NCBI RefSeq assembly: GCF_000956525.1
Contig: NZ_JYIW01000015.1
Coordinates: 1-64,000 of the forward strand
Source of the DNA: Microbacterium oxydans
Lineage (GTDB): Bacteria; Actinomycetota; Actinomycetes; Actinomycetales; Microbacteriaceae
Direction of reading: 5' to 3'
DNA: 64,000 nucleotides
Notes under the pieces: model-generated
Told to the model about the DNA's origin: nothing
What the model saw: the letters and a program-made list of their open reading frames with translations, nothing else
Databases searched by the model: none
Part shown: positions 13,297 through 19,595 of the stretch, piece after piece
Position numbering within the stretch: position 1 is the first letter of the stretch
Layout of the letters: every line of letters starts with the position of its first letter
Translations under genes and position numbers: made by a program

Positions 13297-13992
13297 TCAG
13301 GGCGTGCGGATGCCGCGGCGGCGCCCGATCCAGACCACGCCGGCCGCGACGCCGATCACTGCGATCGCGATGCCGACGATGTACCCGGAGACGCCGAGAT
13401 ACCCGCCGGGGACGAGGTGCGGGTCGAGGAAGGGGTACGGGTACCACCACGGATCGCCGGTGGCCGGCGCGATGATCAGGTTCGCGCGGACGAGCGTGTA
13501 GACGGCCCACACGATCGGGAAGATCGCGGTGATGAAGATGCTGTTCCATCCGAGTGCCCTGCGACGCGGTGCGAACAGCACATCGGCGAGCAGGAACAGC
13601 GGGATGACGACGTGCAGCACCTCGTTCGACCACGGCACGGTCACGCCCTGCGGCAGCTGGACGTTGCGCAGCAGCGTGTTGTAGACGATGCCGGTGATGA
13701 TCATGTACGTGCTCACGCACACCAGGAGCACAGCGAGCCAGTGCGGCTCCGCGTCGGTCGTGCGGCGGTGCCGGATCGCCCAGACCGCGCCGATGGCGAG
13801 CACGACTGCTGCGAGGAGGTTCGACTCGATCGTGAAGAAGCTGAAGAAGTTCGCCGCCACCGTCGGGAGGTGGGTTCCCCACTCGGTGGTCGACTGAAGC
13901 GCATTCTGCATCGATCTCGACAGCTGGGCGATGATCGCCGCAAGTGCGAGGATGGATGCCGCGATGCGTGCGTAGGGCCACCAGGTCTTCAT
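13297..13992 (-). CDS. Pr6Pr family membrane protein
   Basis: A 231-residue polytopic protein with six predicted helices. The pattern resembles Pr6Pr / FAR-17a-like proteins: [13 protein letters not shown] after the first helix, [15 protein letters not shown], a conserved [14 protein letters not shown], and a final [14 protein letters not shown] loop. Function in bacteria is unknown. The ATG at 13992 has GGAGG upstream; the longer open frame runs into the palindromic control region and was not used. It is transcribed divergently from the GntR gene. Confidence 0.85.
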
Positions 13993-14053
13993 TTCGCCTC
14001 CGTCGCCACTGTAGCGGCGGGGTTGCAGGATGCGGTTGCAGTTCTCGGATGCG

Positions 14054-14077
14054 GTTGCCGCTTTCGAAAGCGGCAAC
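14054..14077. promoter_or_regulatory. Perfect 24-bp palindrome in the Pr6Pr/GntR divergent region
   Basis: GTTGCCGCTTTC is followed directly by its complement GAAAGCGGCAAC with no loop. Two related GATGCGGTTGC words lie just to the left (from about 14030). With TATAC (about 14085) nearby, it may be an operator for the divergent GntR regulator, or a hairpin. No assignment is certain. Confidence 0.5.
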
Positions 14078-14182
14078 TTGTCGCTATACATGGCTCAGAC
14101 CCGATGCTGTCGAGACGACTCGATTCGCCGACGGCTGGGGTGCGCTCTGGGGGCGCGAGAATGACGGGGAAGGCGGGGAATC

Positions 14183-14977: not shown

Positions 14978-17137
14978 ATGAGCGACACCGGTGTGAGCAC
15001 CACGACGAGCGCTGGCGAAGGGCGACCGAAACGGGTCCGCGCCGGCTTGAGCATCCAGTCGAAACTCCTCATCATGCTGCTCGCGGTGAGCCTGGTGTCG
15101 TCGGTCATCGTCGGAGCCATCGGCTTCATGAACGGACGGCAGTCGCTGCACGATGCGGCGGTCGACCAGCTCATCACGATCCGCTCCATGCGCGCCGCCG
15201 AGATCACCGACGCGATCGAGGGCATCAAGCGGGATGCCTCGTTGAACTCGCGCAACCTCAGCGCGCAAACGCTGTCCGCGGAGGTGAACGCGGGCTTCGA
15301 GGAGCTCCAGCAGCAGGAGGTGACGCCGGAGGAGCGGGCGCAGCTCGAGACGTACTACACCGACACGTTCATCCCGGAGCTCGAGGGCCGCACCGGCGAC
15401 CAGTACGGCGACAGCGCGTTCATCCCCGAATCGCCAGCCGGACAGTACCTGCAGACGAAGTTCACGGTCGAGAACACCGACTTCGACGCGGACTACGACA
15501 CCCTTCTGAACGACAACGACCCCGGTGACGGCAGCACCTACGCCATCGCCAGCGCGCGTTACGGCGACTACTTCACCCGGCTCGTCACGGAAGCCGGGTA
15601 CGAGGATGCGCTCCTGATGAACCTCGATGGCGATGTCGTCTTCTCCGCGTACAAGGGTGCGGAGCTCGGCACGAACCTGCTCACCGGCCCGTATCGAGAC
15701 ACGACGCTCGCGCAGGCATACGTCGACGCGGTCGCCACCAACTCGGTGAGCACCGTCGTGCTCACCGACTTCGAGCGATGGATCCCATCGCTCAACGTGC
15801 CCACGATGTGGGTGCTCTCGCCGGTGGGAAGCAGCAGTCGGATCACCGGAGTGATGGCCTTCCAGGTGTCGATCGAGACCATCAACAATCTGACCACCGG
15901 TTCGGAGGGATGGAAAGAACAGGGACTCGGAGACACCGGTGAGGTGTACCTCGTCGGGCGAGACGACCTGATGCGCAGCAACGCCCGACGACTCATCGAG
16001 GATCCGGAGCACTACGAGCAGCTTGCGATCAACGGCGGCACGCCGCCGAGTGTGGCGAAGCGGATCGTCGAGGTCGACGGCACCGTGCTGCTCCAGCCGA
16101 TCAACACGGTGGCGGTGGCGGATGCGCAGGCCGGGCGCAGCGGTACCACGACCGGACGGGACTACCTCGGCGGTGACAGCGTGACCGCTTATGCGCCCCT
16201 GGAGATCGACGGTCTCGATTGGGTGATCGTCGCCCGCATCGACTCCGCAGAGGCCTTCGCGCCCGTGAGTGAGTTCACGAGGATCGTGCTGCTGTCGCTG
16301 CTCGGCATCCTGCTCGGCGTCTCGCTGCTCTCGCTGCTGCTGGCCCAGGTCTTCACGAGGCCCATCCATCGACTCGTCGGCGCCGTGCACCGAGTCGCCG
16401 AGGGCGATCTCGACGTGCAGGTGCCGCAGGGCTCGCGCGACGAGTTCGGCGACCTCGGCAGCGCGTTCAACGATATGGCGTCGAGTCTGCGCATCAAGCA
16501 GGAGCTGATCGAGGATCAACAGGCCGAGAACGAGAAGCTGCTGCTCACGCTCATGCCCGAGAGCGTCGCGACGAAGTACAAGCAGGGCGACGAGACGATC
16601 TCCGAGGCGCACGAGAACGTGTCGGTCGTGTTCGCCGAGCTCATCGGCTTCGACGAGTACGCCCGCGGACTCTCCGGTGACCAGGAGATCGGACACCTGA
16701 ACACGCTGATGCGCGGCTTCGACGAGGCCGCGGAGAAGGCCGGCGTCGAGAAGGTGCGAACGCTCCGCGGCGGCTACCTCGCGTCGTCCGGGCTGGTCGT
16801 GCCGCGCGTCGACAATGTGCGGCGCAGCGTCGACTTCGCCCGCAACCTGATCGGCGTGATCGAGCGCTTCAACGCGCAGAACGGTTCGTCGATCGGGCTC
16901 CGCGCCGGCGTCGACACCGGCACCGTGACGAGCGGTCTCGTCGGACGCACGAGCCTCGCCTACGACCTGTGGGGCGACGCCGTGAACCTCGCCTACCGCG
17001 TGCGCTCGGTCACCGGCGAACCCGGCATCTACGTGAGCCAGAACGTGTACGACCGCTCGCGTGAGATCTTCACCTTCGTCGAGGCCGGAACGGTCGAGAC
17101 CCACGGCAAGGCCGAGACGGTCTGGAAGGTGGTCTGA
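14978..17137 (+). CDS. Transmembrane class III cyclase-like protein (HAMP-cyclase homology) lacking one metal ligand
   Basis: A 719-residue protein: TM1 ~27-50, an extracytoplasmic Cache/sensor-like domain of ~380 residues, TM2 ~432-455, HAMP (~455-508), a short coiled linker, and a class III nucleotidyl cyclase domain (~540-719). The domain keeps the nucleotide and transition-state residues LWGDAVNLAYR (664-674, Asn670 and Arg674). At the metal sites it reads FAELIGF (Glu554 instead of Asp) and RTLRGGY (Gly598 where GDAY-type cyclases have Asp), so normal two-metal catalysis is doubtful. GGGAGGG precedes the ATG at 14978. One base separates its stop from an MscS-type channel gene carrying a cyclic-nucleotide-binding domain, strongly suggesting they work as a pair. 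Extracellular signal unknown. Confidence 0.9.
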   Translation: MSDTGVSTTTSAGEGRPKRVRAGLSIQSKLLIMLLAVSLVSSVIVGAIGFMNGRQSLHDAAVDQLITIRSMRAAEITDAIEGIKRDASLNSRNLSAQTLSAEVNAGFEELQQQEVTPEERAQLETYYTDTFIPELEGRTGDQYGDSAFIPESPAGQYLQTKFTVENTDFDADYDTLLNDNDPGDGSTYAIASARYGDYFTRLVTEAGYEDALLMNLDGDVVFSAYKGAELGTNLLTGPYRDTTLAQAYVDAVATNSVSTVVLTDFERWIPSLNVPTMWVLSPVGSSSRITGVMAFQVSIETINNLTTGSEGWKEQGLGDTGEVYLVGRDDLMRSNARRLIEDPEHYEQLAINGGTPPSVAKRIVEVDGTVLLQPINTVAVADAQAGRSGTTTGRDYLGGDSVTAYAPLEIDGLDWVIVARIDSAEAFAPVSEFTRIVLLSLLGILLGVSLLSLLLAQVFTRPIHRLVGAVHRVAEGDLDVQVPQGSRDEFGDLGSAFNDMASSLRIKQELIEDQQAENEKLLLTLMPESVATKYKQGDETISEAHENVSVVFAELIGFDEYARGLSGDQEIGHLNTLMRGFDEAAEKAGVEKVRTLRGGYLASSGLVVPRVDNVRRSVDFARNLIGVIERFNAQNGSSIGLRAGVDTGTVTSGLVGRTSLAYDLWGDAVNLAYRVRSVTGEPGIYVSQNVYDRSREIFTFVEAGTVETHGKAETVWKVV

Positions 17138-17138
17138 C

Positions 17139-18566
17139 ATGCTCGACGAGGCGTTCCGGGACGGGTGGGGGTGGTGGGTCGTCGCGCTCGCCGTCGGCGT
17201 GCCGGTGCTGCTCGTCGTCCTCACCGAGCTGATCAACGGCCTCCGCCGCCGCAACAGCCCGATCGCCGGACCGCTGCGTCTGCTGCGCAACGGCGTGATC
17301 CCAGCCGGCGCGCTGTTCGCCCTGCTGTTCTTCGCGATCCAGTCCCCGGCCGATCAGGTGTGGACGCGCGTGGTCGCGACGATCTTCGGGTTCCTCGTGA
17401 TCCTGCTGGTGCTGTCGTCGTTCAACGTCGCGCTGTTCGCCAACGCCGCGCCCGACTCCTGGCGCAAGCGCATCCCGTCGATCTTCATCGAGATCGCCAG
17501 ACTCGTGCTGGTGGCGCTCGGCCTCGCGCTGCTGTTCTCGTGGGTGTGGGATGCCGATGTCGGCGGCCTCTTCACGGCGCTCGGTGTCGGGTCGATCGTG
17601 ATCGGCCTCGCGCTGCAGAACGCGGTCGGCGGCGTCATCTCCGGCCTGCTGCTGCTGTTCGAGCAGCCCTTCAAGATCGGCGACTGGCTCGACACCGGCG
17701 GCGTGAAGGGGCGCGTGGTCGAGGTGAACTGGCGCGCCGTGCACATCCAGACCGGCAACAGCATCCAGATCGTGCCGAACTCCACGCTCTCCGGCGCATC
17801 GTTCACGAACATGAGCGCGCCAACGGGCATCTACTCCGCCACGACGACCGTGACGTTCGCGACCGACGACCCGCCGCACGAGGTGATGGCGCTGCTGACC
17901 GAGGTCGCCGAGGCGCTGCCGATGCGCCTGGAAGACGAACGCCCTGACGTGGACTACCTCGGCAAGGGCGCGTATGAGGTCACGATCCCCGTGAGCGCGC
18001 CCGGTGAGGCGCAGCGTGCGCTCTCCCTCTATCTGTCGTGGCTCTGGTACGCCTCGCGTCGCCGCGGGTTCGCGCTCGACGGTGACGCGACCGATCCGAT
18101 CGCCGAGCCTGCTCGACTGGTCGAGGCGATCGAGAAGGTCGGACCGACGTTGCACCTTCGCGATGAGGACCGCGAGGCGATCCTCGCCGGTACGAGGCTC
18201 GAGCGCTACGGCGTCGGCGAGCTGGTGCTGGGCTCGGGCGTCGTGCCGGATCGCGTGCTGATCGTCGTCTCCGGTCGGGCTGCGCTCGGCGTCGAGGCCG
18301 ATGGCGGGCGGATCGACTTCGCCGCGGCCGAGCACGGCGACATGATCGGGCACACCGCACTGACCAGGGAGCGCACGCAGACGGTCGCCGTGGCATCCGA
18401 CATCCTGACCGTGCTCTCGGTGCCGCTGTCGATCATCGATCAGCTGATCCAGACGCGTCCGCGGCTCGCGGCCGAGATCGGCGAGGCGCTCGAGCTGAAG
18501 CGCAAGCTCGCCGCGGATGCGCTGAGCGCACTCGGCCTGTCGCGGCCGATCGCGCGCAAGCGCTGA
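17139..18566 (+). CDS. MscS-type channel with C-terminal cyclic-nucleotide-binding domain
   Basis: A 475-residue membrane channel. Several N-terminal helices lead to the MscS pore and beta domains (about 140-260; GVGSIVIGLALQNAVGGVIS, FKIGDWLDTGG, IQIVPNSTLSG). A CNB domain (about 340-455) follows. Its phosphate-binding cassette reads GDMIGHTALTRERTQTV: the arginine is kept (Arg412), but the usual Glu of GE.AL is His405. Such fusions (bCNG-type) are known to be gated by cyclic nucleotides instead of tension. It begins one base after the cyclase-like gene, with GGAAGGTGG as ribosome site. The altered cassette leaves ligand identity open. Confidence 0.9.
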   Translation: MLDEAFRDGWGWWVVALAVGVPVLLVVLTELINGLRRRNSPIAGPLRLLRNGVIPAGALFALLFFAIQSPADQVWTRVVATIFGFLVILLVLSSFNVALFANAAPDSWRKRIPSIFIEIARLVLVALGLALLFSWVWDADVGGLFTALGVGSIVIGLALQNAVGGVISGLLLLFEQPFKIGDWLDTGGVKGRVVEVNWRAVHIQTGNSIQIVPNSTLSGASFTNMSAPTGIYSATTTVTFATDDPPHEVMALLTEVAEALPMRLEDERPDVDYLGKGAYEVTIPVSAPGEAQRALSLYLSWLWYASRRRGFALDGDATDPIAEPARLVEAIEKVGPTLHLRDEDREAILAGTRLERYGVGELVLGSGVVPDRVLIVVSGRAALGVEADGGRIDFAAAEHGDMIGHTALTRERTQTVAVASDILTVLSVPLSIIDQLIQTRPRLAAEIGEALELKRKLAADALSALGLSRPIARKR

Positions 18567-18597
18567 TTCGCGGCTCGTCCGCACGAGGTGGGACGCA

Positions 18598-18657
18598 GTG
18601 AGGGGTCAAGACGCGCCGTTCGCGTGCACGTGTGAACGGCGCGTCTTGACCCCTCAC
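18598..18657. terminator. 60-bp inverted repeat between converging genes
   Basis: Two perfect 24-bp arms, beginning GTGAGGGGTCAAGACGCGCC (18598-18621) and ending GGCGCGTCTTGACCCCTCAC (18634-18657), flank a 12-base loop that is itself nearly symmetrical. It lies between the convergent MscS and EamA genes, and the EamA stop codon sits in the right arm. A bidirectional terminator is likely; a mobile palindrome is possible. Confidence 0.75.
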
Positions 18658-19595
18658 CGCGAGGCGCTGCGTTGCCGCCACCGCAGCCGGGTGACGAGCA
18701 CGCCCAGGAGGCACAGCGCGCCGCCGAGGAACATCAGGGGTGTCGGCACCTCGCCGAGGATCGCCCAGGACATCAGGATCGCGATCGCCGGAACGACGTA
18801 CGTGGTCGCCGAGGTCTGACCCGCGGTGCTCCGCTGCAGGACGTATGCCCAAGTGGTGAAGGCGATCGCGGTGGGGAAGATGCCGAGGTAGACGACCCAC
18901 ATGGTGGCGTCGAGCGGGGCGGACTGCAGCGCGCCGATGAGGCTGCCCGTCCACGGGAGCAGTGCGATGGTGCCGGCGACAGCGCCGAGGAACGTGAGCG
19001 TCGTCGCGTCGGTGCCGGCGCTGAGCAGCCGCTTCTGCAGCAGGGTGCAGCCGGCGTACATGACGGCGGCGAGGAGGGCGAGCAGCAGGCCGGTGATGTC
19101 GGGCCCCTCGGCGGTCGAGGAGTTCATGCCGATCAGCACCACGCCGAGGAAGGCGATCGGCGCACCGATCACCAGCGGCTTCGGGAACCCCTCGCGCAGG
19201 AACAGTCCGCTGAAGATCACGACCATGAGGGGTGCGAGATTCACCACCATCGCGGCGGTGCCGGCATCGAGGGTGCGCTCGGCGGCGTTGAGGGCGAGGT
19301 TGTAGACGCAGAACCAGCCGACGCCCCAGACGGCGATGAGCCACCAGTGCCGACGATCGGGCAGACGGATGCCGTGGCGCACCGCGATGATCGCGAGCAC
19401 CACACTGCCCACCGCCATGCGCAGCAGCGCCAAGGCGCCGGGGTCGTAGTGCGGACCGGCCCCGCGGATGCCGATGAACGCGGATGCCCAGAGAACGACC
19501 GTGACCAACGCGGCGATCAGGACGAGAGGGCCCTGGGTCTTCGGGGTGGCGGTGGGCGTGCGGACGCCGTGTTCGCCGGGTGCGGCTTCTGACAT
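18654..19595 (-). CDS. EamA family transporter (DMT superfamily)
   Basis: A 313-residue inner-membrane protein with ten predicted helices in two EamA halves. Typical features are [20 protein letters not shown] at the end of the first helix and GILxEVPTPL-like [16 protein letters not shown] in the second half. Members export metabolites or amino acids; the substrate is not predictable. The ATG at 19595 gives a complete first helix, although GGAGG touches the start codon, so the exact start is uncertain. Its last codon overlaps the large inverted repeat. Confidence 0.88.

Follow-up and report, generated by a model that had tools for sequence, protein, structure and literature searches.

The window analysed here is a stretch of 64,000 nucleotides of Microbacterium oxydans (RefSeq assembly GCF_000956525.1, contig NZ_JYIW01000015.1), and it carries two adjoining genes, termed A and B in the following. 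Gene A encodes a membrane receptor with a class III cyclase-fold output domain, and gene B encodes a channel of the mechanosensitive channel of small conductance (MscS) superfamily that ends in a cyclic-nucleotide-binding (CNB) fold. The partnership of A and B in one function is well supported, as is the predicted loss of catalysis in the cyclase domain of A. We read the pair as an obligate receptor-channel unit in which the pseudo-cyclase and the CNB-like domain would work as conformational parts; this is the best explanation of the whole, and we give it an even chance. In its most specific form, put forward tentatively, Mycobacterium and Microbacteriaceae would share a two-gene module in which a dead-cyclase receptor would gate an MscS channel by touching its CNB-like domain directly, the two halves of a second-messenger circuit having been retained and the messenger dropped, and in which distant Actinomycetota would place two pseudo-cyclase receptors at each channel.

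Pairing and distribution of the two genes

Of 299 genomes of the family Microbacteriaceae, 44 carry full-length A; these 44 also carry B, which adjoins A in every one, and no others do so at full length. B of these carriers shares at least 42 percent identity, and the weak matches in two further genomes are confined to the MscS part. In the other 43 carriers, the window's genome aside, both genes lie on the same strand with B downstream, at spacings of -14 to +20 nucleotides (nt), the window having +1. At E 0.001, a match to A appears in 229 of the 299 genomes; the 44 counted are those with whole-protein matches (in one, G041, in two pieces), and most of the other listed family matches fall over the HAMP region. 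The class sample of 394 genomes, which overlaps the family sample in part, has 30 genomes with A, and exactly these have B; each gene is present in at least 33 copies, three genomes holding two pairs. At this step 27 of the 33 loci were read, all with A upstream of B, the other six being in the family set or the window. At most three candidates per genome were scored for A in the family and at most two in the class, and copy counts are thus lower bounds.

A occurs in 118 of 148 Mycobacterium genomes. B lies next to A at all 65 mycobacterial loci read, with a 4-nt overlap in 53 of them; these loci are part of the listed copies, and some repeat named loci. Among the named loci B is present at 79 of 80, two of which have it cut by a contig end. 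The exception, L164:3944-5821 of Microbacterium sp. 8M, carries a single deletion that joins residue 590 of A in frame to the C-terminal end of B, so that A lacks its end, almost nothing of B is left, and the two genes have decayed together. The first-pass annotation of the A-B pair had proposed a dedicated sensor-channel unit, against which separate occurrence of the genes in close relatives would have counted. The two genes keep to the same genomes in both samples and adjoin at every locus read except the L164 deletion, which supports such a unit, and with adjacent genes in 44 of 44 family carriers the pairing is no accident.

Carriers outside both groups include Occultella aeris (77 percent), an Arthrobacter (73 percent), and Kitasatospora arboriphila (47 percent), and such outlying carriers point to joint transfer of both genes. 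None of the 14 listed clusters of flanking open reading frames is widely common to mycobacteria and the rest; the clustering is inflated by off-frame reading frames of GC-rich DNA and was used for these 14 clusters only. The trees of A and B are largely in agreement: 41 of the 74 splits of A with support of at least 0.95 are also supported in B, and the mycobacteria are not monophyletic under the rooting used. Rows above 85 percent identity were excluded before tree building together with L267 and L295, in which the retrieved stretch ends within B, and with the six loci also left out of the distance-correlation test described below (L110, L127, L140, L149, L164, and L166).

Architecture of the receptor and the channel

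The Pfam family Guanylate_cyc matches residues 542-713 of A (E 7e-32, 110.8 bits), and dCache_1 matches residues 200-419 (E 9e-11, 42.2 bits, slightly below the curated cut-off of 45). A has the layout of a dCache-HAMP receptor, in which the dCache region lies between two transmembrane (TM) helices and the HAMP domain follows the second. The AlphaFold2 model of A has a mean predicted local distance difference test score (pLDDT) of 83.8, and the nearest solved folds to its cyclase domain are class III cyclase domains with Z of about 20-23. B matches PF00924 with 69 bits and shows a pore helix followed by a beta domain. Its model has a mean pLDDT of 86.9; the nearest solved folds to the pore half are MscS channels (Foldseek, E about 1e-12), and the C-terminal CNB fold is intact in the model, with Z 17.7 to a Mesorhizobium loti CNB domain. 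The earlier description of A as a sensor-TM-HAMP-cyclase protein and of B as an MscS-CNB protein is thereby confirmed by Pfam, models, and solved-fold matches, and the coordinates and the one-base spacing of the genes also proved correct.

The closest named relative is from Microbacterium, at 85 percent identity in A. Plasmid records of Phaeobacter, Leisingera, and Salinivibrio contain methyl-accepting chemotaxis proteins that match the sensor and HAMP stretch of A; the ligand of those chemotaxis proteins could hint at the signal of A.

Loss of the catalytic residues in the cyclase domain

Class III catalysis was assessed at four positions, namely the first and second metal-site aspartates (D1 and D2) and the transition-state Asn and Arg. 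Gly-Asp (GD) at the second metal site is found in 0 of 198 distinct A-B pairs, and the complete set D-D-N-R is found in 0 of the 197 rows that have letters at all four places. The second Asp position (column 598) holds N in 104 of the 198 rows, G in 27, E in 21, S in 14, Q in 13, A in 6, R in 5, D in 5, H in 1, and T in 1, with one gap. The first holds D in 142 rows, E in 48, Q in 6, and N in 1, with one gap. The Asn position has N in 94 rows, S in 60, D in 34, and other residues in the remainder, and the Arg position has R 105, Q 81, and others, the Arg being mostly Gln in mycobacterial rows (73 of 107). When the family profile is aligned to human AC9, R-x-G-Y sits over G-D-C-Y of the catalytic half, and the family motif around the lost GD reads R-T-x-R/H-x-G-Y-L-A-S-C-G-L-x-V-P-R. 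As a control, 12 non-pair class III cyclases of the family were given, of which 7 aligned and 6 did so over both metal sites; all six hold both aspartates. Based on these residues, the cyclase domain of A is predicted to be no longer catalytic, and A is very probably silent as an enzyme in the cell.

An alignment artefact was ruled out, as AC9, the Rhizobiaceae homologues described below, and the six control cyclases of the family give the same register. A decaying pseudogene was ruled out as well, the cyclase domain being more conserved than the sensor (entropy 1.04 vs 1.21; gap-rich rows were removed before the entropy and covariation analyses, leaving 192 of 198) and the frames being open with some exceptions. 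These exceptions are, besides the L164 deletion, an in-frame TAG in A of G577 (L110) and one in-frame stop within the B match of each of G286, G111, and G570. We also note that in Leifsonia aquatica (L166:3884-7513) the frame of A continues into B over 1210 codons and resembles a frameshift near the end of A; this joined frame looks like a fusion or a sequencing error.

The genome of the window has one class III cyclase match (PF00211) and one Pfam cNMP_binding match at E 0.001, and both lie within the A-B pair. Another class III match is absent from 40 of the 44 family carriers. Another cNMP-binding match is absent from 30 of 44 over the curated cut-off, a count that omits nine matches under it, and from 24 of 44 when weaker matches to E 0.001 are counted; carriers with neither number 29 of 44 (23 of 44 with the weaker matches). 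The cyclase search covered class III, which is stated in print to be the only cyclase class found in Actinobacteria (PMC2447327). The carrier genomes leave little room for a diffusible messenger.

The CNB fold of the channel

The canonical Glu of the phosphate cassette is present in only 1 of 194 relatives of B (L322). The position is occupied by Q in 100 relatives, L in 39, S in 13, V in 13, H in 8, I in 7, G in 5, M in 4, and a few others, and the window has His. The place of the cassette Arg holds a small residue in the profile alignment to the Toxoplasma CNB-domain protein 9ya0 (TGME49_219070). For comparison, CNB domains from other proteins of the carrier genomes, 9 of 13 of which aligned, carry Glu (6 of 9) or Asp (3 of 9) at the cassette position. 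Judged by its residues, the CNB fold of B is predicted to be without the canonical contacts to cyclic AMP (cAMP) or cyclic GMP (cGMP).

Distant relatives and unpaired homologues

Rhizobiaceae plasmids (Sinorhizobium, Ensifer, and Pararhizobium) carry unpaired homologues of A that are co-linear with it at 32-33 percent identity, one of them with 33 percent identity and 4 gaps over 689 columns. They are dCache-HAMP-class III cyclase proteins of the same architecture as A. Four were read; every one of them has D1, Lys, GD, N, and R, within the motifs F-A-D-L-V-G-F, K-T-V/L-G-D-A-Y-M-A, and D-T-V-N-L-A-S-R, and none has a B homologue within 4-5 kilobases (kb). This is in contrast to A, where the catalytic residues are lost and B adjoins.

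Bacterial cyclic-nucleotide-gated (bCNG) channels of the MscS-CNB type resemble B in having an MscS pore, a beta domain, and a C-terminal CNB domain. These channels are gated by cAMP, and some MscS-CNB channels are nucleotide-gated. Unlike them, B is paired with a receptor gene and has lost the cassette Glu. A plasmid search with B gave no match that covers 80 percent of the query; around four MscS-CNB genes on plasmids of Rhizobium, Ensifer, and Burkholderia, no homologue of A lies within 3 kb.

A search of 110 Actinomycetota genomes with the B profile returned, besides close relatives, two full-length ones of about 27 percent identity from other classes. In both, B lies between two A-type genes on the same strand, forming an A1-B-A2 triplet (L344/L329/L342 in G836 and L343/L330/L341 in G886). 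In the tree, the upstream receptors group apart from the downstream ones, each group with full support. The catalytic set is present in none of the four cyclase domains, the upstream copy of G886 retaining G-D-A-Y. It is difficult to explain two different dead receptors beside a single channel by nucleotide synthesis, whereas a protein assembly would account for them.

Proposed mechanism

That the sensor, HAMP domain, and signalling helix are conserved speaks for A still passing on a signal, and the conservation of the cyclase domain over the sensor argues that this domain still has a role. Since B is, in addition, the only strict companion found, A is read as a receptor acting on B by conformation. 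In the proposed mechanism, the dCache region of A would sense an extracytoplasmic ligand, and the HAMP domain and the signalling helix would relay the change to a dimer of the cyclase fold that has ceased to produce cyclic nucleotide. This pseudo-cyclase dimer would then act on the MscS pore of B and shift its state, most likely through direct contact with the cytoplasmic part of B including the CNB fold, and opening or closing of B would pass small solutes or ions. The release of solutes as the output is likely, and contact in place of a diffusible messenger is a proposition for which we see the balance as level.

Precedents for the separate parts exist in other proteins. In degenerate receptors of the LapD type, a dead enzyme domain serves as a conformational output behind HAMP, and KCNH channels have a CNB homology domain whose fold does not use cyclic nucleotides. 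These systems belong to other enzyme families than A, and LapD still binds its own nucleotide.

Alternative explanations

The main rival, which we regard as unlikely but worth serious attention, holds that the degenerate pockets still bind, the pseudo-cyclase holding a nucleotide or another ligand without turnover, the CNB-like domain binding another ligand such as another nucleotide or a lipid, or both. Asp at the base site (D663) is present in 192 of 198 rows and Arg at the Lys position (R594) in 189 of 198, positions which we take to be those of base recognition in active cyclases. Their conservation, which counts against the conformational reading, suggests that the domain may still bind a ligand. 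The conserved loop around the lost GD and the retained CNB fold also speak for this rival. On the other side, the metal-site and transition-state positions are variable, no ligand was identified, and a conserved position may serve folding or an interface.

That the altered site of A runs another reaction, for instance a phosphotransfer, whose product acts on B, is improbable; the conserved loop at the former GD would suit a changed chemistry, but the D2 column holds ten different residues, unlike a new catalytic site.

The circuit originally proposed, in which A responds to an external signal by producing cAMP or cGMP close to the membrane and the nucleotide opens B, has a slightly smaller and likewise poor prospect. 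It draws on the gene order, the domain names, and the nucleotide gating of some MscS-CNB channels. Its nucleotide step is not supported, in view of the loss of the metal site in the window (GD to RG, with Glu at D1) and of the catalytic set in all 197 rows, in a genome where A is the only class III match. In addition, the CNB Glu is lost in 193 of 194 relatives, and homologues with intact sites do exist, the four read being unpaired.

Mere co-transcription of A and B with separate work for each is very improbable, and the pair is compatible with it insofar as no interface is shown. Against it, A and B occupy the same genomes in both samples (299 and 394) even though the listed flanking clusters differ between Mycobacterium and the rest, and the channel is flanked by two receptors in two distant lineages.

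The least probable alternative takes A as a C2-like half that would, in the manner of mammalian adenylyl cyclases, give N and R to a second cyclase with the metal aspartates. In its favour, the profile aligns with either half of AC9, whose C2 half also lacks the GD aspartate, and N670 and R674 are kept in the window protein, but 40 of 44 carriers, the window genome included, have no other class III match, and N (94 of 198) and R (105 of 198, mostly Gln in mycobacteria) are poorly kept, so that it was rejected on the missing partner.

Points against the conformational reading

Several further points count against the reading of the pair as a conformational unit or limit it. Neither of two covariation tests showed an A-B interface. 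In mutual information with average product correction over 192 concatenated pairs (effective number of sequences, Neff, 113), inter-protein scores are as high as intra-protein scores, which indicates that the measure reports phylogeny and not contact. Partial correlations of distance matrices over 87 pairs are weak, that of the first half of the cyclase domain to the CNB domain being +0.17 (bootstrap standard deviation 0.05), and they are unspecific, since the sensor to TM1-2 gives +0.25 and the HAMP region to TM3-4 and pore gives +0.22. In the trees, 11 of the 74 supported A splits (0.95) clash with a supported B split.

The loss of chemistry also has its exceptions. D1 and D2 are both Asp in 2 of 198 rows (L077 and L297), each of which is without N or R, and L322 (G741) has Glu at D1, keeps D2, N, and R, and is the sole relative with the CNB Glu. 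L322 is a possible case of regained or residual nucleotide chemistry, and single species (L322, L077, and L297) may have residual or regained activity. The intact unpaired homologues of A are all from one family, and the contrast that they provide is effectively one event. With regard to B, the unpaired MscS-CNB channels of Rhizobium, Ensifer, and Burkholderia have no cassette Arg (4 of 4) and mostly keep Glu (3 of 4), so that the missing Arg is not peculiar to the A-B family, and the CNB domain of B varies more than its pore (entropy 1.42 vs 0.57). The argument from the CNB domain is weaker than that from the cyclase domain.

Mycobacterial counterparts

The Mycobacterium loci found have a dCache-HAMP-cyclase gene followed by an MscS-CNB gene, as in A-B. 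When set side by side from published descriptions, Rv2435c (orthologue MSMEG_3578) and its neighbour Rv2434c, which we take to have an MscS part, are probably the mycobacterial counterparts of A and B. Rv2435c is reported to carry a dCache domain (PMC4822843) and to group with mammalian-type cyclases, MSMEG_3578 being the listed orthologue, in a paper that counts five annotated cyclases of strain H37Rv as having no demonstrated activity (PMC3961136). Rv2435c or MSMEG_3578 is counted among the adenylate cyclases elsewhere (PMC3938503, PMC7739888). Rv2434c is described as a membrane protein that possibly binds cyclic nucleotides and may take part in cAMP signalling, the wording of the source being "cyclic glycine-binding" (PMC11205783). 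All modern Beijing strains of Mycobacterium tuberculosis are reported to carry RD311, a 213-bp deletion by which Rv2434c is inactivated (PMC8386458), and the probable channel partner therefore seems dispensable in that lineage. No description of the A-B pair as a unit, or of its catalytic loss, was found in the literature searched, the papers being covered in part; PMC2447327, in which both Rv names occur, may already mention that the genes adjoin or that the residues are lost.

If the proposed mechanism is true, the pair would be a bacterial receptor-operated channel with a cyclase fold as its mechanical output domain, and it would show a route from a cyclic-nucleotide circuit to a direct one. 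It would also remove a gene group present in most of the Mycobacterium genomes from the counts of mycobacterial adenylate cyclases, in which it is listed among the producers of cAMP.

Features of the locus

The coordinates of the pair and its parts are collected in Table 1. One base separates the stop of A from the start of B, and 126 bases separate A from a preceding GntR-FCD regulator gene on the same strand. The scan upstream of A found no sigma-70 promoters. Beyond B, past an inverted repeat, lies a convergent transporter gene, and the repeat is a possible bidirectional terminator.

Table 1. Features of the A-B locus, in positions of the window.
Feature	Position	Strand	Basis or remark
Gene A, receptor with cyclase-fold output domain, 719 amino acids	14978..17137	+	ATG 14978; stop ends 17137; TM - dCache - TM - HAMP - signalling helix - degenerate class III cyclase domain
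TM helix 1 of A, residues 30-48	15065..15121	+	Hydropathy; helix 26-92 in model
Extracytoplasmic dCache sensor region of A, about residues 50-430	15125..16267	+	Pfam dCache_1 200-419; model
TM helix 2 of A, residues 436-454	16283..16339	+	Hydropathy
HAMP domain of A, residues 454-505	16337..16492	+	Pfam, E 3e-16
Class III cyclase-fold domain of A, residues 542-713, predicted catalytically dead	16601..17116	+	Pfam, fold, and residues
First metal-site position of A, E554 in place of Asp	16637..16639	+	Register checked against Rhizobiaceae homologues and AC9
Second metal-site position of A, R597-G598 in place of Gly-Asp	16766..16771	+	Alignment to AC9, Rhizobiaceae homologues, and family rows
Transition-state positions N670 to R674 of A	16985..16999	+	Both kept in window, variable across family; family alignment
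Gene B, channel of the MscS superfamily, 475 amino acids; five predicted TM helices, C-terminal CNB-fold domain	17139..18566	+	ATG 17139; stop ends 18566
Pore helix of B, residues 141-175	17559..17663	+	Model, Foldseek
MscS beta domain of B, residues 162-226	17622..17816	+	Pfam MS_channel_2nd, E 4e-19
CNB-fold domain of B, residues 356-439	18204..18455	+	Pfam cNMP_binding, E 7e-07, 29.6 bits, cut-off 27.5
Phosphate-cassette equivalent of B, G-H-T-A-L-T-R-E	18348..18371	+	Canonical Glu replaced; commonest family residues G-Q-T-A-L-T-R-E
28-nt inverted repeat between B and convergent transporter gene	18594..18661	.	96 percent complementary, 12-nt loop, without T run

Two genes upstream of A, a gene for a Pr6Pr family membrane protein (NCBIfam) lies at 13297-14091 on the minus strand.

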